Of a DNA stretch of 41,215 nucleotides, positions 1,897 to 41,098 are shown one piece after another. The notes under the pieces are model-generated. The model made no database searches. It was not told the origin of the DNA and saw nothing but the letters and a program-made list of their open reading frames with translations. The DNA lies in assembly GCA_026399415.1 (NCBI GenBank), contig JAPLQZ010000223.1, positions 1 to 41,215 on the forward strand, read 5' to 3'. Source of the DNA: Rhodocyclales bacterium (lineage in GTDB: Bacteria > Pseudomonadota > Gammaproteobacteria > Burkholderiales > Rhodocyclaceae). The position numbers and the translations under genes are program-made. The stretch's first letter is position 1. The number at the start of each line of letters is the position of its first letter.

Positions 1897-3126
1897 ATGA
1901 ACAAGTTGCTTGTTTCTGTCATCGCTGGCGTCCTGTTGTTCGGCGCAACGTTGGTCGCTGGTCAAACTCAGGTTTCGATTCCCTCCCTGGCAACCGAGAA
2001 ACCTGCGGTGTTGAATGCCTACATGTACACCCCCGAAGGCCCAGGTCCATTTCCTGCCGTCGTATTGGCTCATGGCTGTGATGGAACAAGCATCCGCGAT
2101 AAGAACTGGGCACAGTTTCTCCTCGCTCGCGGCTATGTGGCTCTGATTGTTGATAGCTTCACGACCCGCTCGATTTCCTCGATATGCACCGGCCAGCAGC
2201 GGCTTAGCCTTGCTGATCGTGCCGGGGACGCATTGGGCACACTCAAGTATCTCCAGTCGCTAGCCAATGTCGACAAGCATCGGATTGGCATCATGGGATT
2301 TTCCCACGGCGCGATGACGGTACTCAAGACAACCTCTGAAACCACAACTTTCCCTCTTGGGGTAGCCCCGCGCTTTGCTGCCGCGACGGCCTTGTATCCC
2401 GATTGTCTTACAAGCGAGGTCGATACAACAGTGCCGTTGTTGATACAAAGCGGTGAACGGGACGACTGGACGGCCGCCGCACCGTGCCAGTTGAAGACAG
2501 CCCTCAGAAAGAGCGAAGGCTACCCGGTCGACATCAAGGTATACGAGGGAGCCCTTCACGCGTTTGACAAACCGGACGTCCAGTATTATTACGGTGCTCA
2601 GTTCTTGAACAGTAACAAGCCGAAGTTCTGTTGTGGTGCGACGGTTGGCTATAGCCACGCCGCGCACCAAAAGGCGGAGCAAGCCACGGAGGAGTTTTTT
2701 TTCAGGCATCTTAAAGCTGCCAACCCAGCCAGCCAGCCAGTCTGGGCGTCGAAACCAGAGCCAACGCGCGATGAAGTCAGCAAGTTGGTGCTGGCTGCCA
2801 AAGCCTATGCCGCAGCCAATGGCAAAGAGAAATTGATCCAATTGATCGATAGTCAGGATGCGCAATTCCGAAAACGCCGTCTGTATCTCGTTTTGCTCGA
2901 TTCGGATGATATATGTATAGCGGATGGGTTGCTGCCGGTCGCTGGCAAGGGTTTGGATTATGCAAAATTTAAAGACACTCAGAATCGACCGTATATTGAT
3001 GCCATAAAGTCAGCACTTGAAAAGAGTCCCCCATGGGGGAGCCTGTATCGAGGGCTTACCGCAGGGGATATTTATGCGGAACGACTGGACAATGGCGACG
3101 TCATTGTGGGCACATTGATCAAGTAG
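1897..3126 (+). CDS. Secreted dienelactone-hydrolase-like alpha/beta hydrolase with C-terminal extension
   Basis: A 409-residue protein. The start at 1897 is preferred over an in-frame ATG at 1879 because a Shine-Dalgarno (GGAGAGGA) lies between them and it gives a clean signal peptide (MNKLLVSVIAGVLLFGATLVAG). Residues about 30-272 form an alpha/beta hydrolase of the dienelactone hydrolase type: oxyanion region LAHGCDG, nucleophile elbow GFSHG (Ser136), acid Asp189 or Asp190 in GERDD, and His221 in ALHAFD. Such enzymes cleave esters or lactones; the signal peptide puts this one in the periplasm or outside. Residues about 275-409 form a tail I do not recognise. The gene is on the opposite strand to its neighbours, visibly less GC-rich, and sits between two copies of an MFS 3' end, which suggests acquisition by insertion. 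Confidence 0.8.
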   Translation: MNKLLVSVIAGVLLFGATLVAGQTQVSIPSLATEKPAVLNAYMYTPEGPGPFPAVVLAHGCDGTSIRDKNWAQFLLARGYVALIVDSFTTRSISSICTGQQRLSLADRAGDALGTLKYLQSLANVDKHRIGIMGFSHGAMTVLKTTSETTTFPLGVAPRFAAATALYPDCLTSEVDTTVPLLIQSGERDDWTAAAPCQLKTALRKSEGYPVDIKVYEGALHAFDKPDVQYYYGAQFLNSNKPKFCCGATVGYSHAAHQKAEQATEEFFFRHLKAANPASQPVWASKPEPTRDEVSKLVLAAKAYAAANGKEKLIQLIDSQDAQFRKRRLYLVLLDSDDICIADGLLPVAGKGLDYAKFKDTQNRPYIDAIKSALEKSPPWGSLYRGLTAGDIYAERLDNGDVIVGTLIK

Positions 3127-3144
3127 TTTCGACGGCAGAAATCG

Positions 3145-4362
3145 TCAGATCGCAACAAAGTGACGCAGGCGCCCGGCTCGCAACAGCAGCCAGACACAGA
3201 GGGCAAGCAGTATCGCAGATTCGCCGAGCAAGGTGGCGGGAGCCGTGGTTACCGCGGCAATGCTGCCGGCAATCAGTCCGCCGACGGCATCGAGGCCGAA
3301 ACGAATACTTGAAAAGAATGAAACCACCCTGCCGCGCAAGCGATCCGGCGCCATGGTCTGCATTGCCGTATTGATGCCGACGTTGGCGCCTGAAATGCCG
3401 AAGCCCAGTGCTGCCAATGCCGGCAGGGCGATCGCCAGATTTGCCGTGAGCGGAAACACCGTGAGTGCGACCGTCGCCAATACTACGCAGAAGATCGCGA
3501 GATTCAGGCTGCCGCGCACCGATGTGCGCGTCGCCAGCACCAGCGTTGCGGCAAAGGCGCCGCAACCGGCGGCGCCCCACAACAGGCCCAGCGTGCGCGC
3601 ATCGCCCTGGAACACCTCCCTGGCGAATACCGGCAGCAGCACGGCATACGCCGACGCGGTGAAATTGAGCAGGGCCAGAACGATCAGCAGCGTGCGTATC
3701 GGCCAGGTGTCGAAGGCGTAGCGCACGCCTTCCTTGAAAATACGGCCGACGCTGCCGCCCGACTTCGCATTCGGCGCCAGGCGCATGAGGGCCACGCCCC
3801 ACAGTAGCGCCAGATAGGAAAAGGCATTGAGCAGGAAGCAGGCGGCCTCGGACATCAAGCTCAGCATCAGCCCGGCAATCGGCGGGCCGACGAAACGGCC
3901 GAAGTTGAACAGCATGGCATTCAGCGCCAGGGCATTCGGCAGGTCCTCGCGGCCGCCGACCATGACCGGAATCAGCGATTGGCGCAAGGGAGTGTCGAAG
4001 GCGTTGAGGATGCCCAGCGACAGCGACATGAGGATGATCAGCGTCGGCCCGATCAGATCAAACCATGTCAGTGCCGCCAGCACGCCGGCCTGGATGAAGA
4101 GCAGGACTTGCACCTGCATCAGCAGGCGGCGCCGGTCATGGCGGTCTATCCACGCGCCGGCCATGGGCCCGACCACCAGGATCGGCGCCAGCGCGGCGAA
4201 GGCGGAAAGCCCCAGCAGTGCCGCCGACCCGGTCAGGCGATACACCAGCCAGGCCAGTGCGACCTGCTGGATCCAGGAGCCGAGGATGGAAACCGCCTGG
4301 CCGAAAAAATACAGCCGGAACGGGCGATGGCCCAGCGCCCGCATCGCGGCGGGAAGTTTCAT
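3145..4362 (-). CDS. MFS transporter (MFS_3/EntS-like)
   Basis: A 405-residue membrane protein with about twelve hydrophobic segments. It opens with MRALGHRPFRLYFFGQAVSI, typical of the MFS_3 group that includes EntS-type exporters, and carries the loop-2/3 motif GAWIDRHDRRRLL. Members export siderophores, drugs or metabolites through the inner membrane by proton antiport; the substrate here is unknown. The gene lies 19 bp downstream of the gabD-like gene on the same strand, so the two are probably cotranscribed. Its 3' end is duplicated at 1577-1726. The intact gene ends with LRHFVAI, a C-terminus different from the one preserved in the remnant. Confidence 0.88.
   Translation of the reverse strand: MKLPAAMRALGHRPFRLYFFGQAVSILGSWIQQVALAWLVYRLTGSAALLGLSAFAALAPILVVGPMAGAWIDRHDRRRLLMQVQVLLFIQAGVLAALTWFDLIGPTLIILMSLSLGILNAFDTPLRQSLIPVMVGGREDLPNALALNAMLFNFGRFVGPPIAGLMLSLMSEAACFLLNAFSYLALLWGVALMRLAPNAKSGGSVGRIFKEGVRYAFDTWPIRTLLIVLALLNFTASAYAVLLPVFAREVFQGDARTLGLLWGAAGCGAFAATLVLATRTSVRGSLNLAIFCVVLATVALTVFPLTANLAIALPALAALGFGISGANVGINTAMQTMAPDRLRGRVVSFFSSIRFGLDAVGGLIAGSIAAVTTAPATLLGESAILLALCVWLLLRAGRLRHFVAI
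3161..3306. repeat. Right copy of the duplicated MFS 3' segment
   Basis: This is the intact-gene counterpart of the segment at 1593-1726, in the same orientation. The two copies bracket the hydrolase gene. Relative to the left copy it has 12 extra bases at 3275-3286. It forms the working 3' end of the MFS gene that stops at 3145. Confidence 0.85.
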
Positions 4363-4381
4363 GACTCAGAAAAACGCGCGG

Positions 4382-5824
4382 TCACAAGCCGGCCATGGCC
4401 AGGTACTTGATCTCCAGATATTCCTCGATGCCGTGTTTCGAACCTTCGCGCCCCAGCCCCGACTGCTTGACCCCGCCAAATGGCGCCACCTCATTGGAGA
4501 TCATCCCGGAATTGATGCCGACCATGCCATAGTCGAGCGCCTCGCCGACGCGCCAGGCTCGGGCGATGTCGCGGCTGTAGAAATAGGCCGCCAGGCCGAA
4601 CTCCGTATCGTTCGCCATGCGCACCGCTTCGGCTTCATCCCTGAAGCAGAAAATCGGCGCCACCGGGCCGAAGATTTCCTCGCGCGCCAGGCGCATGGCC
4701 GGCGTTGCGCCGGCCAGCACGGTCGGCTCGAAGAAGGTGCCACCGCGGGCGTGGCGCTTGCCGCCGCACAACACGCGTGCGCCCTGACCCACCGCATCGG
4801 CCAGCAATTCCTCGACCTTGGCCAACCCCGCGTCATCGATCAGGGGCCCTTGCGTCACGCCCTCATCCAGCCCGTTGCCGACCTTGAGCCCGGCCACTGC
4901 GGCAGCCAGTTTCCGGGCGAAAACGTCATGCACGCCTTCCTGCACCAGAAAACGATTGGTGCAGACGCAGGTTTGTCCCGCGTTGCGATACTTCGAGGCC
5001 AGCGCCCCGGCCACGGCAGCATCGAGGTCGGCATCGTCGAAGACAATGAAAGGTGCATTGCCGCCGAGTTCCAGCGACATCTTCTTGATCGTCGGCGCAC
5101 ACTGGGCCATCAACAGCCGCCCGACTTCGGTGGAGCCGGTGAAGGACAGCTTCAGTACTTTCGGATTCGACGTCAACTCACCGCCGATGGCAACCGGTTC
5201 GCCGGTCACCACGTTGAGCACGCCCGGCGGCACGCCTGCCTGCTGCGCCAGATACGCCAGCGCCAGGGCTGACAGCGGGGTCTGCTCGGCCGGCTTGACC
5301 ACCATGGTGCAGCCGGCGGCCAGCGCCGGCGCTGCCTTGCGCGTGATCATCGCCGCCGGAAAATTCCACGGCGTGATCGCGGCGCAGACGCCAACCGGCT
5401 GCTTCAGCACAATCAGGCGGCGGTCGGCCAGCGGTGAGGGAATGACTTCGCCATAGACGCGCCGCGCCTCCTCGGCAAACCACTCGATGAAGGATGCGGC
5501 GTAAGCAATCTCGCCGCGCGCTTCGGCCAACGGCTTGCCCTGCTCCAGCGTCATCAGCCGCGCCAGGTCTTCCTGGTTCTCCATCATCAGTTCGAACCAG
5601 CGCCGCAGGATTTTCGCCCGCTCGGCCGCCGTCTTCGCCCGCCAGGGATGAAACGCCGCGTCTGCGGCATCGATTGCGCGACGGGTTTCGGCCGCGCCGA
5701 AACTGGGGACGGAGCCGACCAGGTCGCCGTTAGCCGGATTGTGGACGTCAATGCTGGCGCCGGTGGCAGCCAGCCATTCGCCGTTGATCAGACAGGTATT
5801 GCGCAGGAGTTCGGAGTTCTTCAT
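4382..5824 (-). CDS. gabD: NAD(P)-dependent succinate-semialdehyde dehydrogenase-like protein
   Basis: A 480-residue aldehyde dehydrogenase, full length for the GabD group. Visible features are the WNFP motif (153-156), the general base Glu252 in LELGGNAPF, the catalytic Cys286 in GQTCVCTNR, and the C-terminal GGVKQSGLGREGS region. The ending YLEIKYLAMAGL is typical of GabD. It would oxidise succinate semialdehyde (or a similar semialdehyde such as glutarate semialdehyde) to the acid in the cytoplasm. CVCTNR rather than CxxANR is common in this subgroup. No gabT lies nearby, so the physiological substrate is not shown by context. The MFS gene follows on the same strand. Confidence 0.88.
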   Translation of the reverse strand: MKNSELLRNTCLINGEWLAATGASIDVHNPANGDLVGSVPSFGAAETRRAIDAADAAFHPWRAKTAAERAKILRRWFELMMENQEDLARLMTLEQGKPLAEARGEIAYAASFIEWFAEEARRVYGEVIPSPLADRRLIVLKQPVGVCAAITPWNFPAAMITRKAAPALAAGCTMVVKPAEQTPLSALALAYLAQQAGVPPGVLNVVTGEPVAIGGELTSNPKVLKLSFTGSTEVGRLLMAQCAPTIKKMSLELGGNAPFIVFDDADLDAAVAGALASKYRNAGQTCVCTNRFLVQEGVHDVFARKLAAAVAGLKVGNGLDEGVTQGPLIDDAGLAKVEELLADAVGQGARVLCGGKRHARGGTFFEPTVLAGATPAMRLAREEIFGPVAPIFCFRDEAEAVRMANDTEFGLAAYFYSRDIARAWRVGEALDYGMVGINSGMISNEVAPFGGVKQSGLGREGSKHGIEEYLEIKYLAMAGL

Positions 5825-5914
5825 GGATCGCTTTCAATGTTTCGGGACAGAGCCGGATTCTGCCGCATTGCGGCGAAAAATGGGCGCCCGGCTGGTCAGG
5901 CGATCCACGACCTA

Positions 5915-5946
5915 TTGCATATACGCAATATATTGCTATGATGCAA
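5915..5946 (+). promoter_or_regulatory. tumE promoter overlapped by two 14-bp palindromic operators
   Basis: Two sites with the same arms, TTGC-N6-GCAA, lie at 5915-5928 and 5933-5946, with centres 18 bp apart. The -35-like hexamer TTGCAT (5915-5920) and -10-like hexamer TATGAT (5937-5942) are 16 bp apart, and each lies within one palindrome. Binding of the downstream winged-helix antitoxin here would block the promoter, the usual autoregulation of toxin-antitoxin operons. A transcript from this -10 would start near 5949, almost at the preferred ATG (5950), so the toxin message may be leaderless. Confidence 0.6.
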
Positions 5947-5949
5947 TAC

Positions 5950-6237
5950 ATGAAAGCGACCATGATCGCCCATGCCAAGGAAGTGCGCGACGATGGATCG
6001 ATTGTCGAGATCGTGGTCTGGGAACTGGCCAAGCCCTTGCCGCCTTGCGCGCACCGCTACAAGTATCGGCTGTTCTTTGGCACATCCGGCGAGTGTTTCG
6101 TGCGCTACGACAATGCAACAGGCAAAGGCGAGCATCGGCACGCCGGCAGCGTCGAGAAGCTTTACAACTTCAAGGATCTCGATTCGCTGCTGGCCGACTT
6201 CGAACGCGACGTGACGAACTGGAGGATAGATAGATGA
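5950..6237 (+). CDS. tumE: TumE-family (DUF6516) toxin component
   Basis: A 95-residue protein beginning MKATMIAHAKEVRDDGSIVE and containing HRYKYRLFFG and VRYDN, the hallmark blocks of the TumE/DUF6516 family. Family members are predicted or shown toxins of a two-gene module with a winged-helix antitoxin; the mechanism is not evident from sequence. Three in-frame ATGs are possible (5938, 5941, 5950). I prefer 5950 because the family normally starts close to MKA and the upstream ones lie inside the -10 box. The stop codon overlaps the start of the next gene by four bases (ATGA), as expected for a coupled pair. It is known to me by motif recall, not by a search. Confidence 0.72.
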   Translation: MKATMIAHAKEVRDDGSIVEIVVWELAKPLPPCAHRYKYRLFFGTSGECFVRYDNATGKGEHRHAGSVEKLYNFKDLDSLLADFERDVTNWRIDR

Positions 6238-6587
6238 AAGCCATTGTTGAAGTAGGCGGCAAGGGAGCCGTATTCAAGGCCGTGCGGGAACAAGTCGCGC
6301 GAAAGGAGCGCGGGAGGGCGCCGGACTACCGCCTTTCCTTCGAGTCGGCGCGCATGCTGTTTGCCGAGCTGACGCCGGCTCGGCTGGATTTGCTCAACAC
6401 GCTGCGCGGACTGGGACCGGTGAGCATCTATGCTTTGGCGAAGACGGCCGGACGCAATTATTCAAATGTCCATGCCGATGTCGCCCGCCTCGTTGAGTTG
6501 GGACTGATCGAACGCACCGATGAAGACACGGTGACCGTTCCCTTCGATGCCGTCGAGATTCGCATGGCATTGGCGCAGGCGGCATGA
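6234..6587 (+). CDS. tumA: HVO_A0114-type winged-helix antitoxin/regulator (TumA-like)
   Basis: A 117-residue protein. The C-terminal half reads as a MarR-like winged helix: the helices LTPARLDLLNTLRGLGPVS and IYALAKTAGRNYSNVHADVA, then the wing LGLIERTDEDTVTVPF. This matches the HVO_A0114 family of putative DNA-binding proteins that pair with TumE-type proteins. The likely job is to neutralise the upstream protein and to repress the operon by binding the twin palindromes at 5915-5946. It overlaps tumE by four bases. The DNA-binding family call is firm; the antitoxin role rests on the gene pairing. Confidence 0.72.
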   Translation: MKAIVEVGGKGAVFKAVREQVARKERGRAPDYRLSFESARMLFAELTPARLDLLNTLRGLGPVSIYALAKTAGRNYSNVHADVARLVELGLIERTDEDTVTVPFDAVEIRMALAQAA

Positions 6588-6630
6588 TTAAGAATATCTG
6601 AGCCTGGCCCATTTAGTTTCGTATTCGTTC

Positions 6631-6670
6631 CGCTCGCCGTACCGCCAGCGCCGACTCTTGCGGTCGAGCG
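6631..6670. repeat. Dispersed 25-bp repeat within a hairpin, copy 1
   Basis: The core at 6636-6660 (starting GCCGTACCGCC, ending GACTCTTG) matches 24 of 25 bases of a segment inside rne (37841-37865) and about 21 of 25 between dsbB and livM (10722-10746). Here it forms a hairpin: 6631-6636 pairs with 6665-6670 and 6641-6645 with 6660-6664, leaving a 14-nt loop and a 4-nt bulge. It lies between the convergent tumA and GGDEF genes. Confidence 0.55.
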
Positions 6671-6692
6671 CCACGACCTGGCCCGCACTGGA

Positions 6693-7754
6693 TCAGGCCG
6701 TGGCGCTTGCCACATCCACCACGTCGGCCCGTACCACGCAGTTGCGACCGGCGGCCTTGGCCCGATACAGCGCCGCGTCGGCAGTCTTGGTCCACGCCTC
6801 GACCGATTGCCCGGCCTGGTACTGACCGACGCCAATACTGATCGTCACACTACGGCCGGGAAGAATCTCGGCCGCCTCGACGGCACGCCGGATATCCTCG
6901 GCGACCACCACCGCGCCATCGGCATCGGTGTGCTCCAGCAATAGCAGAAATTCCTCGCCGCCCCAGCGAAACAGTCGTTCGCCGCGGCGCAGGCGCTCAC
7001 CGACGGCTTGCACGATGCCTTGCAGGACCAGATCGCCTCGATCATGTCCGTAAGCGTCGTTGATCGGCTTGAAAAGGTCAACGTCGATCATCAGCACCGT
7101 GGCCATGATCGGATGCCGTTCTGCGCGGGCCACCAGCACCTCGAGGTTCTGCTCCATGAAGCGGCGGTTGAAACAACCCGTCAGCGGATCGGTCAGCGCC
7201 TGTTTGGCCAGCGTCTGGTGCAGGTCGGAGATCACGTTCAACACGATGTTGATCATGATGATGGTGAGCAGCAAGGTGCCGAATACCCGTAGCGCCAGCG
7301 CTGAGTCTATGTAGTGAACGGTCAGCCAGGACAGATAGCAGAGCATCGCCAGGCTGCATGCGATGGCGACGCGGCGGCTGAGCACGAAGTAGCTGTACAC
7401 AATCACTGGATAGCTCCACAGTACGCCAGGAACGCCCTGGATCATCACCGCCGCGGTAATCCCCGCAAGGAAGGGAACCAGCAGCAGCGCAAACGGTACC
7501 GGCACGGGACGCCCGCACCGTACGGCGTAGACATTGGCGAACGTGAGCGCCTGGATGAACAGGAGAATCAGCGCGACCAGGTAGCGTTGCTGCAGGAAAT
7601 TGTTGATCGTGAACGGCGTCAGCAGCAGTACCGTGACACCGCCCATCGAATGCATGACGCGGTCCCGATACGGCGCCAGCGAATCGCTCTCCGCCGTCGC
7701 CACATCGCGTATCCACTGGATCAACGCACTGGTTTCCTGTTTTCCCATCGCCAT
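6693..7754 (-). CDS. Membrane-bound diguanylate cyclase (GGDEF)
   Basis: A 353-residue protein. Residues about 35-178 hold five or six hydrophobic segments forming an uncharacterised membrane sensor region. From about residue 188 (LTDPLTGCFNRRFM) runs a GGDEF domain with the active-site motif GGEEF at 265-269, a sequence compatible with c-di-GMP synthesis. The product-inhibition I-site (RxxD) appears as RRGE (256-259), with Glu for Asp, so feedback inhibition may be weakened. It ends with ISIGV and the DAALYRAKAAGRN block typical of intact cyclases. It lies 11 bp after the HpaI-like gene on the same strand. Which stimulus it senses is unknown. Confidence 0.9.
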   Translation of the reverse strand: MAMGKQETSALIQWIRDVATAESDSLAPYRDRVMHSMGGVTVLLLTPFTINNFLQQRYLVALILLFIQALTFANVYAVRCGRPVPVPFALLLVPFLAGITAAVMIQGVPGVLWSYPVIVYSYFVLSRRVAIACSLAMLCYLSWLTVHYIDSALALRVFGTLLLTIIMINIVLNVISDLHQTLAKQALTDPLTGCFNRRFMEQNLEVLVARAERHPIMATVLMIDVDLFKPINDAYGHDRGDLVLQGIVQAVGERLRRGERLFRWGGEEFLLLLEHTDADGAVVVAEDIRRAVEAAEILPGRSVTISIGVGQYQAGQSVEAWTKTADAALYRAKAAGRNCVVRADVVDVASATA

Positions 7755-7765
7755 GCCGCCATGAG

Positions 7766-8536
7766 CTAACGTTCCCGGAACGATGATGCCAGTTTTAGCG
7801 CCGCATTGCGCAGCAGCGAGGTGTCGCCGCCGACCGCGATGAAACTTGCGCCGCAGTTGCGGTAATGCCGCGCAAGCAAAGGGTCGGTGACAAATACGCC
7901 GGCAGCCTTGCCTGTGGCCGCAATGCGCGTCAACGCGGCTTCAGTGGCGACTATTACTTCCGCATGCCCGGATTCGCCGAGGTAGCCCATCGACGCCGCG
8001 AGGTCGGCCGGGCCGATGAATGCGGCATCGACGCCTTCGACGGTCATGATCGCGTCGAGATTCGCCAGTCCCTGCCGCGACTCAATCTGCACGATCAGGC
8101 AGATTTCCTCATTGGCGCGCCGGGCGTAATCCTTGATGCCACCCCAATGCGCGGCGCGCACCACCGACGCGGCGACACCTCGAATGCCTTGCGGCGGGTA
8201 GCGCACGGCGCGTACCAGCGCCGTGGCCTCGGCGGCCGTTTCGACCATCGGCACCAGCAGCGTCTGGGCGCCGATGTCGAGATACTGTTTGATCAGGGCC
8301 GCGTCGTGATTCACCGGCCGCACCGCCAACTGGACCGGATAAGCCGCGGCGGCCTGCAGTTGCGATAGCACGGTCGCCGGATTGTTGGGCGCATGCTCGC
8401 CGTCGATCAGCAGCCAGTCGAATCCCGCCGTGGCGAGAATCTCCATGCTGTAGGCATTGGCCAGACCGACGAAGAGCCCGATCTGCAGCCGCTGCTGCTG
8501 GAGCAACTGCTTGAAAACATTCCTTGGCATATCCAT
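7766..8536 (-). CDS. HpcH/HpaI-family class II aldolase
   Basis: A 256-residue TIM-barrel aldolase close in length to HpaI and GarL. Conserved features are the IDGEHAPNN block with its catalytic His48, Arg73, and the metal ligands Glu152 (IESRQG) and Asp178 (IGPADLAASMG). These enzymes split 2-keto-4-hydroxy acids into pyruvate (or oxaloacetate) and an aldehyde, with a divalent metal. No 4-hydroxyphenylacetate or galactarate genes are nearby, so the true substrate is open and no symbol is given. The start at 8536 has GGAG about 10 bases upstream, inside the end of the LysR gene. It lies 6 bp downstream of that LysR gene, which may control it. Confidence 0.87.
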   Translation of the reverse strand: MDMPRNVFKQLLQQQRLQIGLFVGLANAYSMEILATAGFDWLLIDGEHAPNNPATVLSQLQAAAAYPVQLAVRPVNHDAALIKQYLDIGAQTLLVPMVETAAEATALVRAVRYPPQGIRGVAASVVRAAHWGGIKDYARRANEEICLIVQIESRQGLANLDAIMTVEGVDAAFIGPADLAASMGYLGESGHAEVIVATEAALTRIAATGKAAGVFVTDPLLARHYRNCGASFIAVGGDTSLLRNAALKLASSFRER

Positions 8537-8542
8537 GGCAAG

Positions 8543-9457
8543 CTACTCCAACTCCAGACCACGATCCCAATAAGGCTCAGGTCCGAGCCTCGCCGCAAGA
8601 AAATCAACAAATGCCCGCACGCGCTGCGGCACGAAGCGGTTGCCGGGAAACACGGCGAACATGTCGAGTATCGGCGTCGGAAAACTCTTCAGGATCGGCA
8701 CCAGCTTGCCCTCGCGGATCGCCTCGGCGGCGATGAATGTGGGCTCATAGACAATCCCCATGCCCTGCAGGGCGGCCTCCTGCAAGGCATTGCCGTTGTT
8801 GGCGGTGATCGGCCCGCTGATATCGACCCAGTGCTGCGCGCCGTCGATGATGAAGGGCCAATTCGAGCGCGAGGTCAGCGAATAGGCGAGACAGGCATGT
8901 TGCGTCAACTCGTCCGGATGCTTTGGCTCGCCATGTCGCCGCAGATAGTCGGGCGAAGCCGCGACCACCGAGCGGCAGGTCGTCAGGCGCCGCGCCACAG
9001 TGGTTTCAGGCAATCGATCGGTAATGCGCAAGGCGAAATCCATCCCTTCTTCGATCAGGTTCACCCGCCGGTCATTGAAGTCGAGATCGATGCGAATGTC
9101 CGGATGATCCTTGGAAAACTCCAGGATCAGCGGCGTCAGATGCAGCAGGCCGAAGGTCATCGGCACACTGGTGCGGATCTCGCCGCGCAGCGTTTGCCCC
9201 TCGCCGGCGAGATTTCCTTCGGCCTCATCGATACGGTCGAGGATGTCCCGGCATTGCTCCAGATAGGCGGAGCCGGCCGAGGTGAGCGACAGCCGACGGG
9301 TGCTGCGGGCGATCAGCTTGACCCCGAGATGGGCTTCCAGCGCAGCAATCTGCCGCGTAACCGCCGAGCGCGCGACATTCATTTGATCCGCCACCGCCGT
9401 AAAGCTGCCCGCCTCGGCCACCCGCACAAAAGTCTGCATTGCCGTCAATCGGTCCAT
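8543..9457 (-). CDS. LysR-family transcriptional regulator
   Basis: A 304-residue protein with the standard LysR layout. The N-terminal winged helix-turn-helix (MDRLTAMQTFVRVAEAGSFT through VARSAVTRQIAALEAHLGVKL) is followed by a linker and a periplasmic-binding-like effector domain from about residue 90. The start MDRLTAMQTFVRV is typical of the CrgA/AaeR-like branch common in Betaproteobacteria. It is followed on the same strand by the aldolase and the diguanylate cyclase, and is divergent from dsbA, with a spaced palindrome between them at 9496-9522 that it could bind. The effector is unknown. Confidence 0.9.
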   Translation of the reverse strand: MDRLTAMQTFVRVAEAGSFTAVADQMNVARSAVTRQIAALEAHLGVKLIARSTRRLSLTSAGSAYLEQCRDILDRIDEAEGNLAGEGQTLRGEIRTSVPMTFGLLHLTPLILEFSKDHPDIRIDLDFNDRRVNLIEEGMDFALRITDRLPETTVARRLTTCRSVVAASPDYLRRHGEPKHPDELTQHACLAYSLTSRSNWPFIIDGAQHWVDISGPITANNGNALQEAALQGMGIVYEPTFIAAEAIREGKLVPILKSFPTPILDMFAVFPGNRFVPQRVRAFVDFLAARLGPEPYWDRGLELE

Positions 9458-9495
9458 GGCCGCCCTGCCCGTTCAGAAATTTTTAGTTTGCGGTC

Positions 9496-9522
9496 ATTGT
9501 ATGGGGAACGCTGTCATACAAT
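9496..9522. promoter_or_regulatory. Spaced palindrome with back-to-back -10 boxes between lysR-type gene and dsbA
   Basis: ATTGTATG (9496-9503) and CATACAAT (9515-9522) are perfect 8-bp inverted arms separated by 11 bp. Each arm contains TACAAT reading outward: 9517-9522 toward dsbA, and 9501-9496 on the minus strand toward the LysR gene. The arms can therefore act as the -10 boxes of divergent promoters, while the whole is a candidate binding site for the LysR protein. The matching -35 hexamers are poor, which would fit an activator-dependent promoter. Confidence 0.5.
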
Positions 9523-9554
9523 TCCACTCAAACCCGCTTTTCACGGAGATTTTT

Positions 9555-10199
9555 ATGAAGAAACTGATTGCATTGCTGTTCGTTACCCTCATTTCATCGT
9601 TCGCCCTTTCAGGCGCAGGCCTTGCTGCCGAGCCACAGGCCGGCCGTGACTTCACGCCGATCAATCCTCCGCTGGCGACGCCCCCCGGGAAAATAGAGGT
9701 CGTCGAGTTTTTCTCTTACGGCTGCTCGCATTGCAGCGAGTTCCACCCCATGATCAGTCAATGGGCGGCCAAGCTGCCGAAAGACGTGAGCTTCCGCCGC
9801 GTACCGGTCAGCTTCAATCGCCCTGAGTGGGCGCGTCTGTCACGGATTTACTACGCGCTGGAAGCTACCGGTGATCTGGCGAAACTCGATGCCGCGGTTT
9901 TTGTTGCGATTCATGAGCAACGCGTCGCCTTCAAGACCGACCAAGCAGTGGTTTCCTGGGTGACGAGCAAGGGCGCCGACGGCAAAAAATTCGGCGATGC
10001 GATAGCCTCATTTTCCATGCAGAGCAAGGTGCAGCGCGCCGACCAGGAAGCGACTGCCGCCCGAATTTCCGGCGTACCTTCACTGGCTGTCGACGGCCGG
10101 TTTCTGCTCAACAACGAAGCGGCGAGCAACTACGAAGAACTGCTGAAGCTCACTGACAGCGTCATCGCCAAAGCCCGTCAGGAACGCAAAGGCAAATAA
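9555..10199 (+). CDS. dsbA: Thiol:disulfide interchange protein DsbA
   Basis: A 214-residue periplasmic oxidoreductase. The start at 9555 is chosen over an upstream ATG because it gives a clear signal peptide (MKKLIALLFVTL to about residue 25) and has GGAG just before it. The active site is CSHC (Cys57-Cys60) in the context FFSYGCSHCSEFHP, and the cis-Pro loop is SGVPSLAVDGRF. DsbA-type thioredoxins insert disulfide bonds into exported proteins. The next gene encodes its likely re-oxidant DsbB and starts on the base right after this stop codon, so the pair forms a compact oxidative folding operon. Confidence 0.92.
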   Translation: MKKLIALLFVTLISSFALSGAGLAAEPQAGRDFTPINPPLATPPGKIEVVEFFSYGCSHCSEFHPMISQWAAKLPKDVSFRRVPVSFNRPEWARLSRIYYALEATGDLAKLDAAVFVAIHEQRVAFKTDQAVVSWVTSKGADGKKFGDAIASFSMQSKVQRADQEATAARISGVPSLAVDGRFLLNNEAASNYEELLKLTDSVIAKARQERKGK

Positions 10200-11679: not shown

Positions 11680-12563
11680 TTCTCTCTCCCAAAAAGCCCC
11701 GCCGGACGGAACATGAGCACCACCGCCATGATCATGAACACCACGGTGGCACTGGCCTCGGGCCAGAACACCTTGGTCATGCCCTCGATAATGCCGAGGC
11801 CGAGGCCGGTCACTACCGAGCCTAGAATCGATCCCATGCCGCCGATCACCACCACGGCAAAGACGACGATGATCAGGTTGGACCCCATCAGCGGACCAAC
11901 TTGGCTCGCCGGTGCGGCCAGCACTCCGGCGAACCCCGCCAGACCGACACCGAAGCCGTAGGTCAGCATCACCATCAGCGGCACGTTGATGCCGAAAGCC
12001 TGCGTCAACTGAGGGTTCTCGGTGGCCGCTCGGAGATAGGCGCCCAGCCTCGTCTTCTCGACCATGTACCAGGTCGCGAGGCACACCGACAAGGAGGCAA
12101 AGACGATCCAGGCGCGGTATTTGGGCAGGAACATGAAACCGAGGTTGAAGGCACCCGAAAACTCTTCTGGAATCGAATACGGCTGGCCCGCAACGCCATA
12201 CAGATCACGGAACAGGCCTTCGATCATCAGGGCCAGGCCGAAGGTCAGCAGCAGCCCGTAGAGATGGTCCAGCTTGTAAAGCCATTGCAGCATCAAGCGT
12301 TCGATGGCAATGCCGATCAGACCGACGCTGATGGGCGCCAGCACCAGCATCCACCAGTAGCCAATGCCAAGATATTCCATGCCCATCCAGGCCAGCATGG
12401 CACCGGCCATGTACAAGGCGCCGTGGGCGAAATTGATGATGTTCAACATGCCGAAGATCACGGCGAGACCGAGGCTCAGAACGGCATAGAAGGACCCGTT
12501 GACCAGCCCCAGCATCAACTGGCCGAACAGGGCCTGGATCGGTACGCCGAAAATCTCCGTCAT
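11676..12563 (-). CDS. livH: Branched-chain amino acid ABC transporter permease LivH
   Basis: A 295-residue permease with many hydrophobic helices and the LivH blocks NIINFAHGALYMAGA and ENPQLTQAFGINV (the coupling segment), then GGMGSILGSVVTGLGLG. It pairs with LivM to form the transmembrane pore, energised by LivF and LivG. It lies 32 bp after the binding-protein gene and overlaps livM by four bases. The length is typical. Confidence 0.92.
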   Translation of the reverse strand: MTEIFGVPIQALFGQLMLGLVNGSFYAVLSLGLAVIFGMLNIINFAHGALYMAGAMLAWMGMEYLGIGYWWMLVLAPISVGLIGIAIERLMLQWLYKLDHLYGLLLTFGLALMIEGLFRDLYGVAGQPYSIPEEFSGAFNLGFMFLPKYRAWIVFASLSVCLATWYMVEKTRLGAYLRAATENPQLTQAFGINVPLMVMLTYGFGVGLAGFAGVLAAPASQVGPLMGSNLIIVVFAVVVIGGMGSILGSVVTGLGLGIIEGMTKVFWPEASATVVFMIMAVVLMFRPAGLFGREK

Positions 12564-12595
12564 GCGAACATCACTCCCGTGCTGTCAGCCGCGAC

Positions 12596-13828
12596 TTACT
12601 TCTTTGCAACCGCGGGACAACGTGACAGGGCCATTGGCTGGAAGGCCTGCTCGGCGGGAATTACCTGCTTGATGTTGTAGTAGTCCCACGGCTCCTTCGA
12701 CTCCGAGGGCTTCTTGACTTCGACCAGGTACATGTCATGCACCATGCGGCCGTCCTCGCGAATCCTGCCGCCCTTGGCGAACGCGTCGTTGATTGGAGTC
12801 TCATGCATCTTCTTCATCACTGTTGCCGTGTCGTCCGTTCCGGTCGCCTGGACCGCCTTGAGATAGGTAGTCACCGCCGAGTAAGTGCCGGCATGCAGCA
12901 TTGAGGGCATTTTCTTCATCTTGTCGAAAAAACGGCGGCTAAATTCGCGGGTCTCCTTATTGAGGTCCCAGTAGAAGCCCTCGGTGAACATCATGCCCTG
13001 CGTGGTAGGCAGGCCGAGGGCATGAATGTCGATGATGGTCGTCAGCAGGCCTACGATAGTCTGGTTCTTTGTCAGGCCGAATTCGTTGGCCGCCTTGATC
13101 GAATTGATGGTGTCGCCACCCGCATTGGCGAGCCCGACCACCTTGGCCTTGGAGGCCTGCGCCTGAAGGAGGAAGGAGGAGAAGTCGGAGGCATTCAGCG
13201 GGTGCCTGACGGCACCCAAAACCTTGCCACCAGCCGCCTTTACCGCCTCGGTAGTGTCTTTCTCCAGCGAGGCGCCGAAGGCATAGTCGGCGGTGAGGAA
13301 GAACCAGGTGTCCTTGCCCTGCTTCGTCACTGCCGTGCCCGGGCCGTTGGCCAGCGCGTAGGTGTCATAGACGTAGTGCACCACATTGCTCGGTGCGCAA
13401 TCCTCGTTGGTCAGCCGCGTCGACGCGGCGCCGGCGTTGATCATGATTTTGTTCTTTTCGGTGGTGACCTTGGCCACGGCGATGGCCACCCCGGAATTCA
13501 GCACGTCGGTGACCATGTCCACGCCCTGCGTGTCATACCATTCGCGGACCTTGTTGGAACCGACGTCGGCCTTGTTCTGGTGATCGGCGGACACCAGTTC
13601 GACCTTGAACTTGGGCTTGAACTGCGCCTTGAAGTCCTCGATGGCCATTTCGGCCGCCACCACCGAGCCCTTGCCGCCCAGATCGGAATATACCCCGGAC
13701 ATATCCGTCAGCACGGCGATCTTGACCACGTCGCCGGAGATCTTGCCAGTGGTTTGAGCCAGGGCGGATCCCGTCGCCGGCAACAGCATTGCGGAAAGGG
13801 CCAGGGCCAGCAGTTTGCGTTTCATCAT
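12596..13828 (-). CDS. ABC transporter substrate-binding protein (LivK-like)
   Basis: A 410-residue periplasmic binding protein. The start at 13828 is set by a strong Shine-Dalgarno (AAGGAGGAA) and a signal peptide (MMKRKLLALALSAMLLPATGSALA). The mature protein starts with VVKIAVLTDMSGVYSDLGG, the type I fold of the HAAT/LivK family. It is longer than E. coli LivK and resembles binding proteins of Betaproteobacteria that take up aromatic acids, urea, amides or amino acids, so the ligand is open. It sits in the middle of the operon, between livF and livH, rather than at an end. Confidence 0.88.
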   Translation of the reverse strand: MMKRKLLALALSAMLLPATGSALAQTTGKISGDVVKIAVLTDMSGVYSDLGGKGSVVAAEMAIEDFKAQFKPKFKVELVSADHQNKADVGSNKVREWYDTQGVDMVTDVLNSGVAIAVAKVTTEKNKIMINAGAASTRLTNEDCAPSNVVHYVYDTYALANGPGTAVTKQGKDTWFFLTADYAFGASLEKDTTEAVKAAGGKVLGAVRHPLNASDFSSFLLQAQASKAKVVGLANAGGDTINSIKAANEFGLTKNQTIVGLLTTIIDIHALGLPTTQGMMFTEGFYWDLNKETREFSRRFFDKMKKMPSMLHAGTYSAVTTYLKAVQATGTDDTATVMKKMHETPINDAFAKGGRIREDGRMVHDMYLVEVKKPSESKEPWDYYNIKQVIPAEQAFQPMALSRCPAVAKK

Positions 13829-35280: not shown

Positions 35281-35755
35281 TTCCAATATACTGCTTGCTT
35301 GGTTAGCCGTCCCGTGACGGTGTGCCCGGCGGCCCGAAGTGGCGTCGGTGGCACGGTTCCCGGGGTGTCGTTGCCTCCCATGCAGTATCGCTTGTCAGTG
35401 ATCAGATGCAGAGGGGCGACAAGGGCGCGCAAGCAACGGAAAACAGCCGACGGACTTAACAAACCGACCGGTAACGCGACCAGCCGACCACAGGGTATTT
35501 CGCTCGCCCGAAAGAGCGATACTACTTGATTGCGCACAATACACGCACAGATTTGGGCACAGATTGCCGGACGTTGATCATGAGTCAGCGACCGCCTAAC
35601 CGAAGACAAGTCATCAACCCCGTTTGCCACGATAAACCTTAGGCGCCATGAACCTGCCGAACCAACCGCAAACCCGAGGCACACCGCCCGCGTCCTGACG
35701 CCCGCAGTGTGCGACTTGTCGTGCCCTCCTGCAGTGAATGCGCGAGGGAGCACAC
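35281..35755. other. Intergenic region between rluC and rne; likely long rne leader
   Basis: This 475-bp stretch has no protein gene I can support. It contains small hairpins at 35307-35320 (5-bp stem, 4-nt loop) and 35500-35519 (TCGCTC/GAGCGA stem, 8-nt loop), and a Shine-Dalgarno GAGGGAG (35744-35750) before rne. In Enterobacteria the rne transcript has a long structured 5' leader through which RNase E controls its own level. A similar role here is plausible but not shown. No convincing -35/-10 pair was found. Confidence 0.5.
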
Positions 35756-38524
35756 ATGAAACGCATGCTTTTCAATGCGACGCAGGCTGAGGAACTCCGC
35801 GTCGCGATCGTTGATGGTCAGAAACTGATTGACCTCGACATCGAATCAGCCAACAAGGAACAGCGCAAGAGCAACATCTACAAGGCGATCATCACCCGCA
35901 TCGAGCCCTTTGTCGACTATGGCGCGGAGCGCCACGGTTTTCTGCCGTTCAAGGAAATTTCACGCACTTATTTCAAGCCCGGCGTCGACGCCGGCAAAGC
36001 GCGTATTCAGGACGTCCTCAGCAACGGCCAGGAAATCATCGTCCAGGTCGAAAAGGACGAACGCGGCAACAAGGGCGCGGCACTGACCACCTACGTCTCG
36101 CTGGCCGGACGCTACCTCGTGCTGATGCCCAACAACCCGCGTGGCGGCGGCGTTTCGCGCCGCGTCGAGGGTGATGACCGGCAGGAACTGCGCGAGATCA
36201 TGGACCAACTGATCGTTCCCGCCGGCACCAGCCTGATCGCCCGCACCGCAGGCATCGGCCGCGGGCTGGAAGAACTGCAGTGGGATCTTAACTACCTGCT
36301 GCAACTCTGGGGCGCCATCGATGGTGCATCCAAGGCACAGAGCGGAGCCTTTCTGATCTATCAGGAATCGAGCCTGGTCATCCGTGCCATCCGCGACTAT
36401 TTTCATTCGGAAATCGGCGAAATCCTGATCGATACCGATGACATTTTCGAACAGGCGCAGCAGTTCATGGCGCATGTGATGCCCGGCACCGTCAATCGCG
36501 TCAAGCGTTATCACGACGACGTGCCGCTGTTCTCGCGCTTCCAGATCGAGCACCAGATCGAATCGGCTTACTCGCGCCAGGTCACGCTGCCTTCCGGCGG
36601 CGCCATCGTTATCGACCATACCGAAGCGCTGGTCTCGGTCGACGTCAACTCGGGTCGCGCCACCAAGGGCAGCGACATCGAGGAAACGGCGTTGCGTACC
36701 AACTGCGAAGCCGCTGACGAAATCGCCCGCCAGCTGCGCCTGCGCGACCTCGGCGGGCTGATCGTGATCGACTTCATCGACATGGAATCGGCCAAGAACC
36801 AGCGCGAAGTCGAAAATCGCCTGCGCGACGCCCTGCATTTCGACCGCGCCAGGGTCCAGACCGGCAAGATCAGCCGTTTCGGCCTGCTCGAACTGTCGCG
36901 CCAGCGCCTGCGCCCGGCACTCGCCGAAACCAGCTACATCACCTGCCCGCGCTGCACCGGCACCGGCCACATCCGCAGCACCGAATCGGCCGCACTGCAC
37001 ATCCTGCGCATCCTCGAAGAAGAAGCCATGAAGGAAAATACCGGCGCCCTGCATTGCCAGGTGCCGGTGGATGTCGCCACCTTCCTGCTCAACGAAAAAC
37101 GCGTCGACATCTCGCGCATCGAGATGCGCCACCGAGTGAATCTGGTGATCGTGCCCAACCGCCACCTGGAAACGCCGGCACATGAAATCGTTCGCCTCCG
37201 TCACGACCAGCTGAATGCCGAGGGTATCGTCCTCGCCAGCTACCAGATGGCGGAAAAGCCGATTGAAGAGGCCTACCAGCCGCCGTCCGCGCAGTCAGAA
37301 GCCAAGCCCGTCAAGATCGAGGCGGCGGTGAAGGGGATCACCCCGGATCAGCCGGCGCCGATCGTCGAACCCAAAGCAGCAGCGCCAGTCGCTCCGCCTC
37401 CGGCGGCCGACCAAGGCGGGTTCTTCGGCAAGATCATTTCCTTCTTCATGGGCGACAAGAAGACGGAAGCACCTGTCGTCAAAGAAGAAAAGGCCGATAA
37501 GCCGCCGCGCCGCGACAGCGGACGCGACCGCAACCGGGATGGCAATCGCGAAGGTGGCCGCGGTGGCCGCGACCGCAATGCTCGCCGCGACGGACGCGAC
37601 ACCCGCGAAGGCGGCGAACGCAAGGACAGAAGCGAACAGACGCCGCGCCCGCAGGGAAAGCGCGACGAGACGCAGCAGGCCGAAGGCGGCAACCGTCGCC
37701 CGCGCGACGGTCGCAACGAACCGCGTGAACCGAAGGAAGCCCGCGAGCCACGGGAGGCCCGCGAACCCCGTCCGCCGCGCGAGCCCAAGGAGCCCAGGGA
37801 ACCGCGTCAGCCGCGCAGCGAATCGAATGCGGCGTTAGCCGCCGTCCCGCCAGCGCCGACTCTTGCCGGCGACGGCAGTCAATCCACCAGCCAGGACGGC
37901 GAAGCCCGCAGCGGACGCAGAACCCGCGGTCGCGGGCGCGGCCGCGGTCGCAGTGAGGAAGGCAGCACACCGGAAATCGTCGCCGCCGGACTCGTCGCCG
38001 ATCAAGCCAGCGAGTTCGCTCCTGTCGCGACGGAAGCGGCAGCTCCGCAGCCGACCCCTGCGCCGGGGGTCGAGCCAATGGCAGCAGCCCCCATCGTCGA
38101 GGCCGTTGTCGAGGCCGTTGCGGCCCCGGTGGAGCCGACTCCGGCGCCCATCGTTGCCGAACCGGCACCCGTCGTCGCCGAACCGGTCGCCCCAACCGCC
38201 GTAGTGGTCGCAGTGCCGACTCCGCTGCCCGTCGTCGTTCCCACACCGGCCCCCGCCGCCGAGCCTGCCCCGCAATTCGTCGCGGCACCGCCTCAGCCGG
38301 CGACTCCCGTTGCCGATCCGATCATTGTTCCACCGGCACCGAAACCCGCTCCAGTGGATATTTCGGGATCATTGCAACAGGCCGGTCTGGTCATGATCGA
38401 AACCAGCCATGTGGCACCGGCCGCTGACAGCTTTGCACCGGCACAGCCTCTCGGCCGCAAGCCGAAGCCGGCGCCGGTGATCGTCAACGAGCCGCTGCAG
38501 ATGGTGGAAACCAAGAACGACTGA
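35756..38524 (+). CDS. rne: Ribonuclease E
   Basis: A 922-residue endoribonuclease. The start at 35756 follows GAGGGAG. Catalytic half, residues 1-520: S1 domain with VDYGAERHGFLPF, the DNase I-like core with metal ligands Asp296 (SVDVNSGRATKG) and Asp339 (LIVIDFIDME), and the zinc-link CPRC (Cys397, Cys400). Spacings match the E. coli enzyme. The C-terminal half is disordered: an MTS-like amphipathic stretch (GFFGKIISFFMG, about 557-568), then Arg/Glu/Asp/Gly-rich RNA-binding tracts and a long Pro/Ala/Val-rich tail, the usual scaffold for degradosome partners. A dispersed 25-bp repeat is embedded in frame near residue 696. It governs mRNA decay and rRNA/tRNA maturation. Confidence 0.94.
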   Translation: MKRMLFNATQAEELRVAIVDGQKLIDLDIESANKEQRKSNIYKAIITRIEPFVDYGAERHGFLPFKEISRTYFKPGVDAGKARIQDVLSNGQEIIVQVEKDERGNKGAALTTYVSLAGRYLVLMPNNPRGGGVSRRVEGDDRQELREIMDQLIVPAGTSLIARTAGIGRGLEELQWDLNYLLQLWGAIDGASKAQSGAFLIYQESSLVIRAIRDYFHSEIGEILIDTDDIFEQAQQFMAHVMPGTVNRVKRYHDDVPLFSRFQIEHQIESAYSRQVTLPSGGAIVIDHTEALVSVDVNSGRATKGSDIEETALRTNCEAADEIARQLRLRDLGGLIVIDFIDMESAKNQREVENRLRDALHFDRARVQTGKISRFGLLELSRQRLRPALAETSYITCPRCTGTGHIRSTESAALHILRILEEEAMKENTGALHCQVPVDVATFLLNEKRVDISRIEMRHRVNLVIVPNRHLETPAHEIVRLRHDQLNAEGIVLASYQMAEKPIEEAYQPPSAQSEAKPVKIEAAVKGITPDQPAPIVEPKAAAPVAPPPAADQGGFFGKIISFFMGDKKTEAPVVKEEKADKPPRRDSGRDRNRDGNREGGRGGRDRNARRDGRDTREGGERKDRSEQTPRPQGKRDETQQAEGGNRRPRDGRNEPREPKEAREPREAREPRPPREPKEPREPRQPRSESNAALAAVPPAPTLAGDGSQSTSQDGEARSGRRTRGRGRGRGRSEEGSTPEIVAAGLVADQASEFAPVATEAAAPQPTPAPGVEPMAAAPIVEAVVEAVAAPVEPTPAPIVAEPAPVVAEPVAPTAVVVAVPTPLPVVVPTPAPAAEPAPQFVAAPPQPATPVADPIIVPPAPKPAPVDISGSLQQAGLVMIETSHVAPAADSFAPAQPLGRKPKPAPVIVNEPLQMVETKND
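37841..37865. repeat. Dispersed 25-bp repeat, copy 3, inside rne
   Basis: This segment is 24/25 identical to 6636-6660 and is read in frame as part of the disordered tail (AVPPAPTLAG). The flanks GCCGTC (37841-37846) and GACGGC downstream form a short imperfect hairpin. Conservation of a DNA repeat across intergenic and coding sites suggests a mobile or spreading element rather than a protein motif. Confidence 0.5.
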
Positions 38525-38577: not shown

Positions 38578-39051
38578 TCATGGGGCGCTGAGTTTCAAGA
38601 TCAGTCCGGTCGCCGCGTCCTCGATCAAATCGAGCACGTGTTCAAAGCCCTGCGCGCCACCATAGTAGGGATCAGGCACTTCGTCCTCCCCGAAACGCTC
38701 GCCGAATTCGAGGAACAATCCAAGTTTTTTCTGATGGGACCGCGGACAGGCACGCTGCAGCAATTCCAGATGCTCGCGATCCATCGCCAGCACGTAATCG
38801 AAGCGGATGAAATCAAACTCCGTCACCCGTCGCGCGCGCAAGGGCGCCAAATCATAGCCTCGTCGCAAGGCTGCGGCGACCGTTCTAGGATCGGGCGGAT
38901 CGCCGACATGGTAGCCATGGGTGGCAGCCGAATCGAACTCGAACAGATGGTCCACGCGATGCTTCGCCGCCAGTCCGCGCGCCACCCCTTCCGCCGTGGG
39001 CGACCGACAAATATTTCCGGTGCAGACAAACAGGATTCTGTGCAGCTTCAC
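38578..39051 (-). CDS. Low-molecular-weight protein-tyrosine phosphatase
   Basis: A 157-residue phosphatase, typical length. The P-loop CTGNICRS (Cys10 to Ser17) holds the nucleophilic cysteine and arginine, and DPYYGG near residue 120 carries the general acid aspartate. Such enzymes act on phosphotyrosine proteins, for example Wzc-type kinases, or on small phosphate esters. The start is a GTG whose GTGA overlaps the uvrB stop by four bases, so expression was probably coupled to uvrB. With uvrB broken upstream, coupling may be reduced. It ends just before the bidirectional terminator. Confidence 0.9.
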
Positions 39052-41098
39052 GCCGCGTTTCCTGGCGCGTCGTGCGCTTCGCCGCCAAAAGCGAGGCGCT
39101 GGATGCGGAACAGTTCATCGCGGGCCGCAGCAGCCTCTTCGAACTCCAGATTCTTCGCGTGCTCCTGCATGGCCTTCTCCAGCCGCCTGATTTCGCGCGA
39201 CAGATCCTTCTCGCTCATCACTTCGTAACGCGCCGCCTCCTGCGCGGCCTTAAGTTCCCGCACCGCCGTTTCCGAATCGTAGATGCCGTCGATCATGTCC
39301 TTGATGCGTTTCTTGACGCCGATCGGCGTGATGCCCATCGCCTCGTTGTGCGCCAGTTGCTTTGCCCGGCGGCGGCCGGTTTCGGCCATGGCACGCTGCA
39401 TCGAATCCGTGATTCGATCGGCATAGAGCATCGCCTTGCCGTTCAAATGTCTGGCGGCGCGTCCCATGGTCTGGATCAGCGAACGCGTCGAGCGCAGGAA
39501 ACCTTCCTTGTCGGCATCGAGAATCGCCACCAGCGAAACCTCCGGAATATCCAGTCCTTCGCGCAACAGGTTGATGCCGACCAGCACATCGAACTCGCCC
39601 AGTCGAAGATCGCGAATGATCTCGACCCGTTCCACGGTATCGATGTCGGAATGCAGGTAGCGCACCTTGATGCCATTGTCGTTGAGGTACTCGGTCAGCT
39701 GCTCCGACAGCCGCTTGGTCAGCGTCGTCACCAGTACCCGCTCACCCAGCGCGATACGCTTCTTGCACTCCGAAAGCAGATCATCCACCTGGGTGCTGGC
39801 GGGCCGCACCTCGACCACCGGGTCGACCAACCCGGTCGGCCGCACCAGTTGCTCCACCACCTGGCCCTGATGCGCTTCCTCGTAGGTCGAGGGCGTTGCA
39901 GAAACGAACACCGTCTGCGGCATCAGCTTCTCGAACTCCTCGAACTTCAATGGCCGGTTGTCCAGTGCCGAGGGCAGTTTTCCTTGCGCGAGCGGTCGCC
40001 CTTGTACATGCCGCCGACCTGCGGAATCGTCACATGCGATTCGTCGACAAACATGATCGCATCGGGCGGCAGGTAATCGTAGAGTGTCGGCGGCGGCTCG
40101 CCCGGCTGGCGGCCCGAGAGATGCCGCGAGTAGTTCTCGATACCCTTGCAAAAACCCAGCTGGTCGAGCATTTCCAGATCAAAGCGGGTGCGCTGTTCGA
40201 TGCGCTGGCACTCGACCAGTTTCTGATTCGCCTGAAAGAACTCGATGCGCTCGCGCAGTTCTTCCTTGATCGCCTCGATGGCCTTGAGCACTGTGGCGCG
40301 CGGCGTGACGTAATGGCTCGACGGAAACACCGTGAAGCGGCCGAGCTTCTGCCTCGTATGCCCGGTGAGCGGATCAAAAACCGTCAGGCCCTCGATCTCG
40401 TCATCGAACAGCGTGATGCGCACCGCACTCTCGGCGTTCTCCGCCGGGAAGACATCGATCACGTCGCCGCGCACGCGATACACGCCGCGCTTGAAATCGA
40501 TTTCGTTGCGCTCGTACTGCATTTCCGTCAGGCGGCGGATGATCTCGCGCTGGCCGATCCTCTCGCCCGTGCGCAGGTGCAGGATCATGCTGTGGTAATC
40601 GACCGGATCGCCGATGCCGTAGATCGCCGACACCGTGCACACGATCACCACGTCGCGCCGTTCCAGCAGACTCTTGGTCGCCGACAGGCGCAACTGCTCG
40701 ATGTGCTCGTTGATCGACGAATCCTTCTCGATGAACAGATCGCGCGACGGAACGTAGGCCTCGGGTTGGTAGTAGTCGTAGTAGGAGACGAAATATTCGA
40801 CCGCGTTCTCCGGAAAGAACTCGCGGAACTCCGAATACAGTTGCGCCGCCAGCGTCTTGTTGGGCGCCAGCACCAGCGCTGGACGGCCGAGTCTGGCAAT
40901 CACGTTGGCCATGGTAAAGGTCTTGCCCGAGCCGGTCACGCCGAGCAAGGTCTGGAATGAAAGTCCGTCGTTGAACCCTTCGGTCAGCAGGCGAATCGCC
41001 TCGGGCTGATCCCCTGCCGGCAGAAACGGCTGATGCAGGCGCCAGGGACTGCCCGCGAACTCGATCACCCGCCCCTTCAACTCGTGAATCTCGGCCAT
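39048..41098 (-). pseudogene. uvrB: uvrB, frameshifted by an apparent 22-nt deletion
   Basis: Excinuclease ABC subunit B, the DNA damage-verifying helicase-like protein of nucleotide excision repair. Translation from 41098 gives the normal N-terminus, Walker A GVTGSGKT (53-60), the beta-hairpin [24 protein letters not shown] and [13 protein letters not shown], then leaves frame at about 39977 and stops at 39947 after about 383 residues. The rest continues intact in another frame: [20 protein letters not shown], the GRAAR motif VI and the C-terminal UVR domain to 39048. The expected seven residues between, LVEYGFR, are missing. Adding 22 bases gives an exact 691-codon reading frame (690 residues), normal for UvrB. 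The lesion may be real or an assembly error. Confidence 0.9.

Follow-up and report, generated by a model that had tools for sequence, protein, structure and literature searches.

Does the broken uvrB at the edge of this contig record a population that has just lost nucleotide excision repair, or a maintained gene that is broken only in the assembly? The window, by which we mean the whole stretch of 41,215 nucleotides analyzed here, is the entire contig C160 of a fragmented draft genome (G000; 315 contigs, 3.10 Mb, 85.77% complete, 1.9% contamination). On its minus strand, uvrB is expected to span 41098 to 39048, with its start 117 bases from the contig end. The features that bear on the question are as follows.

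39947-41098, minus strand: 5' portion of uvrB, comprising the UvrB interaction domain and the N-terminal helicase part that contains the DESH motif; it stops at an out-of-frame TGA; TIGR00631 model positions 2-357
39976-39977, minus strand: junction at which 22 bases of all aligned relatives are missing (32 of 32 relatives; also G012, G010, and G002)
39048-39974, minus strand: 3' portion of uvrB, read in a different frame and carrying the helicase C and UvrB domains and the UVR motif; TIGR00631 model positions 364-657, E 3.1e-130
38578-39051, minus strand: open gene 3' of uvrB, resembling a low-molecular-weight phosphotyrosine phosphatase; PF01451, E 1.9e-39

The break in uvrB

The uvrB frame is intact up to ...DRSRKEN (13 protein letters not shown), after which it runs through CPRHWTTGH into a stop codon (TGA, 39949-39947). 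The remaining UvrB sequence is encoded in a different frame of the minus strand, down to 39048, so the frame shift described in an earlier note on this DNA is indeed present. The model for UvrB, excinuclease ABC subunit B (TIGR00631), matches the two halves as consecutive parts, the first at 39977-41044 (E 2.3e-173) and the second at 39102-39980. The two pieces score 577.4 and 435.1 bits, each in its own frame; the cut-off, which a single open frame of a functional uvrB should exceed, is 750.1. Pfam recovers all of the UvrB domains (interaction, helicase C, UvrB, and UVR; PF17757, PF12344, and PF02151 among the family's models), jointly kept and divided between the two frames. Unlike the UvrB model, the gene is frame-broken and lacks 22 bases between the helicase C domain and the region of the 5' part that carries what we take to be the DESH motif. 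Apart from the break, neither half contains a further stop. The span from 41098 to 39048 is 2,051 bases, and adding 22 gives 2,073, or 691 codons including the stop, which bears out the length arithmetic of the earlier note. The overlap it reported as GTGA is likewise there, the GTG start of the phosphatase gene overlapping the uvrB TGA.

To size the gap, we aligned 35 sequences, comprising the uvrB regions of congeners, a few others, and four named loci out of 80. The best hits that carry names (Cognatazoarcus, Azonexaceae, Accumulibacter, and Sterolibacterium) suggest that the genome is from a Rhodocyclaceae-like betaproteobacterium. Of these, 32 span the site (25 congeners and 7 others); the other three stop short of it or miss it. 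Alignment with blastn places a single gap at 39976/39977, with one base of ambiguity, and its size is 22 nucleotides against every one of the 32 spanning relatives. The length of the loss reported earlier therefore holds, as does the remark that it is no homopolymer error. The seven residues said to be lost are present in all 32 relatives and vary little; the spelling given for them, LVEYGFR, occurs in only one of the 32, and LVDYGFR is found in 23 of the 25 congeners. An inherited lesion was rejected, since the gap is absent from all 32. The nearest relative, G012, is 91.2% identical over 2,089 columns, and a genome of the same species was not found. Five of the 30 congeners (G008, G013, G020, G025, and G026) had no uvrB match over the site in the assembled sequence searched. 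For G025, which is 100% complete, loss of uvrB was considered and rejected: both contigs matching the neighborhood end before uvrB, the first within the large gene (presumably rne) that occupies 35738-38524 of the window and the second just before that gene, and there is accordingly no evidence of a loss in that genome.

At the junction itself, alignment with relatives leaves one base of homology. A four-base direct repeat flanks the site in the nearest relative at a spacing of 21, so a repeat-mediated loss would predict a deletion of 21 nucleotides, in frame, costing exactly seven residues. The loss in the window is 22 and its homology is shorter than the repeat; the event therefore does not have the appearance of simple replication slippage. 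A repeat at the junction is usual for spontaneous deletions.

We also considered whether the gene might still be used, either because ribosomes shift by -1 at the junction or because the two halves are translated separately, to give a working UvrB minus seven residues. A -1 shift at that point would put KEN in frame with LPSALDNRP. Against this, the junction offers no slippery heptamer of the form X XXY YYZ, the usual criterion for such sites, and no run of A longer than four; the seven residues are conserved in every spanning relative, and the helicase domains would lie on two chains. We regard continued use as improbable.

Selection on the two halves

If the break were old, the sequence on either side should have begun to decay. 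Compared with G012, the 5' part, which in this comparison takes in ~10 codons before the ATG, has a dS of 0.360 and a dN/dS of 0.022, and the 3' part has a dS of 0.353 and a dN/dS of 0.064, within or near the range of 0.026-0.090 for three other relatives compared with G012. In 500-base bins, identity to G012 is 91-95% upstream of the junction and 89-92% downstream. By a hand estimate, neutral change over the gene's own branch (dS ~0.18) would have produced near 280 nonsynonymous changes; the number observed between this uvrB and that of G012 is ~22, counting both branches together. These values indicate that purifying selection acted on uvrB as a whole gene until very recently. Equal divergence and strong purifying selection in both halves mean that the break is either very young or not in the cells, which agrees with the earlier view of the event as very recent or artefactual. 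It is unlikely that sequences of two species were joined here, the halves being equally diverged from G012. An old pseudogene, for which the frame break itself is the only argument, is scarcely credible, given dN/dS values like those of the intact comparisons and the lack of additional disabling changes.

Breaks elsewhere in the genome, genus, and order

Whether the assembly is faulty in general can be judged from other genes. The window aligns to G012, G010, and G002 over 17.7, 37.3, and 34.5 kb, and in a list of 187 non-triplet gaps judged by eye, we found no other uncompensated in-gene frame change relative to these three. In a control with relatives' open reading frames (789 given), 13 of 228 with a match at ≥65% identity were flagged. 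Five of the 13, 2 in sense and 3 in antisense orientation, fall on the uvrB junction. Among the other eight, one, at 35460-35845, has both pieces ≥85% identical; it is antisense to, and before the likely start of, the large gene and was taken as non-coding. The remaining seven are weaker. In three further stretches of the genome (60 kb, 41.2 kb of it covered by relatives), we found no frame breaks. There, 18 of 458 open frames with a match at ≥70% were flagged, one of them with both pieces ≥85% identical and lying within a dispersed repeat; weaker flagged frames were taken for shadow frames or gene borders. The lesion is thus isolated, and a single real mutation and a single local fault fit that pattern equally. 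As a separate observation, a ~148-base stretch of contig C308 (~12526-12674) recurs, among the matches listed, at ten places in G028 and at two in G010 with 91-96% identity; it is apparently a member of a repeat family dispersed through the genus.

The search for another uvrB that the earlier note proposed returned no second copy: in this assembly, which may lack ~14% of the genome, TIGR00631 matched the two halves and six weaker sequences, the best at 49.7 bits. Two complete copies occurred in none of the 101 genomes of the first profile-search set, and among plasmids, uvrB-like sequences were found in 7 records, at 70-76% identity. Of the rest of the pathway, uvrA on contig C290 (1466 bits) and uvrC on C308 (547.8 bits) are full length and open. 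Two further sequences were seen alongside these genes. A shorter UvrC-like open frame within C163:6500-8113 (315 amino acids, model positions 5-171) is possibly a Cho-like or other GIY-YIG nuclease. A uvrA fragment on the minus strand of C290 (21839-22090; model positions 2-83 of 924, in a 121-amino-acid open frame) lies ~4.8 kb from the full gene, with 270 bases 88% identical, and seems to be an additional copy that has been shortened and has diverged.

Across 308 different genomes (G000-G307), examined in two profile-search sets (the 101 genomes, then a sample of the order), at least four carry a uvrB break within one contig: G000, G004, G030, and G110. For the order sample, this holds among the matches listed, and the genomes re-queried, 13 in number, included every one below the cut-off except G000. 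The congener G004 (99% complete; 231-kb contig C121) lacks 76 nucleotides, which breaks the frame at ~2722/2723 of locus C121:85500-92000, leaves model pieces 2-154 and 175-657, and shows no homology at the junction. In the congener G030 (79% complete), the uvrB match at 144-2108 of contig C96 has an in-frame TAA at codon 491 of 655 matched, and an additional 5' uvrB fragment lies on C73. Also on C96, ~7.6 kb unlike the window (~2163-9807) separates the uvrB end from a phosphatase-like match at 9808-10130, and this stretch is likely an insertion. G110, from another family, has uvrB in two frames on contig C102. In G021, G119, G233, and G304, uvrB is spread over two contigs, and some other drafts give only a truncated match. 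Leaving out the window genome, one-contig breaks occur in 2 of 30 congeners and 0 of 70 others (about 0.09 by hand). With the order sample, the comparison becomes 2 of 30 against at least 1 of 277 (about 0.03 by hand), a figure biased towards an excess because stops within full-length matches go unseen among the matches listed. Any genus-wide excess is therefore weak. That uvrB has been repeatedly and recently lost in the genus by independent lesions (the 22 nucleotides here, the 76 in G004, the stop in G030), so that some natural populations lack nucleotide excision repair and perhaps mutate faster, we consider unlikely.

Assembly fault or recent null

The gap is present in the assembled sequence and in no aligned relative, and the two halves look selected as one gene. 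The reading we prefer, with a probability of about 0.49, is that the species maintains uvrB and that the gap is not fixed in it. The gene would then be an ordinary nucleotide-excision-repair gene, intact in most cells, and the 22-nucleotide gap would come from a fault confined to this place in the draft assembly, or from a consensus that took in a rare variant or a chimeric read path. Such a case would resemble the single breaks in conserved genes familiar from fragmented draft and metagenome-type genomes, and the one-contig breaks in the drafts G004, G030, and G110 count in its favor. The likeness is imperfect, as a dropout of 22 bases is larger than the typical indel error and uncommon as a short-read error. 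The absence of further gene breaks in the window or in 41 kb elsewhere also counts against it, showing that the assembly is not generally faulty, as do the equal divergence of the halves, the fact that the pattern of selection would be no different after a real mutation of very recent date, and the breaks in 2 of 30 congeners, possibly a sign that the gene is truly being lost in the genus.

The main rival, to which we give a little short of even odds, is that the sampled population truly carries a loss-of-function deletion of very recent origin. UvrB would be cut after the DESH motif, UvrABC excision would be absent, and the cells would have to repair their DNA by other routes. With translation of uvrB ending ~900 bases too soon, the phosphatase gene that overlaps it may be expressed less as well. 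The occurrence of one clean lesion in a contig that is well assembled otherwise, the lack of a second uvrB in the assembly, and the different breaks in G004 and G030 all speak for it. Against it stand a lesion common to no relative, the weakness of the genus excess, and the improbability of a new null as the population consensus unless it had swept. The open uvrA and uvrC also tell against a loss, though a young event predicts them likewise. An assembly or consensus fault and a real new null are thus about equally likely, and we put the fault slightly ahead because the draft is fragmented, the gene is undecayed, and the junction is without the repeat usual for spontaneous deletions.

Under either reading, the kind of event is ordinary. 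The earlier note raised two possible consequences, faster mutation and a disturbed phosphatase gene, both of which we only infer. If the gap is not real, it illustrates how little one broken frame in a draft tells about the cell, and a gene-content study would err in scoring uvrB as missing from this genome. If it is real, it would represent an excision-repair null of natural origin, observed shortly after it arose, and a possible environmental mutator.
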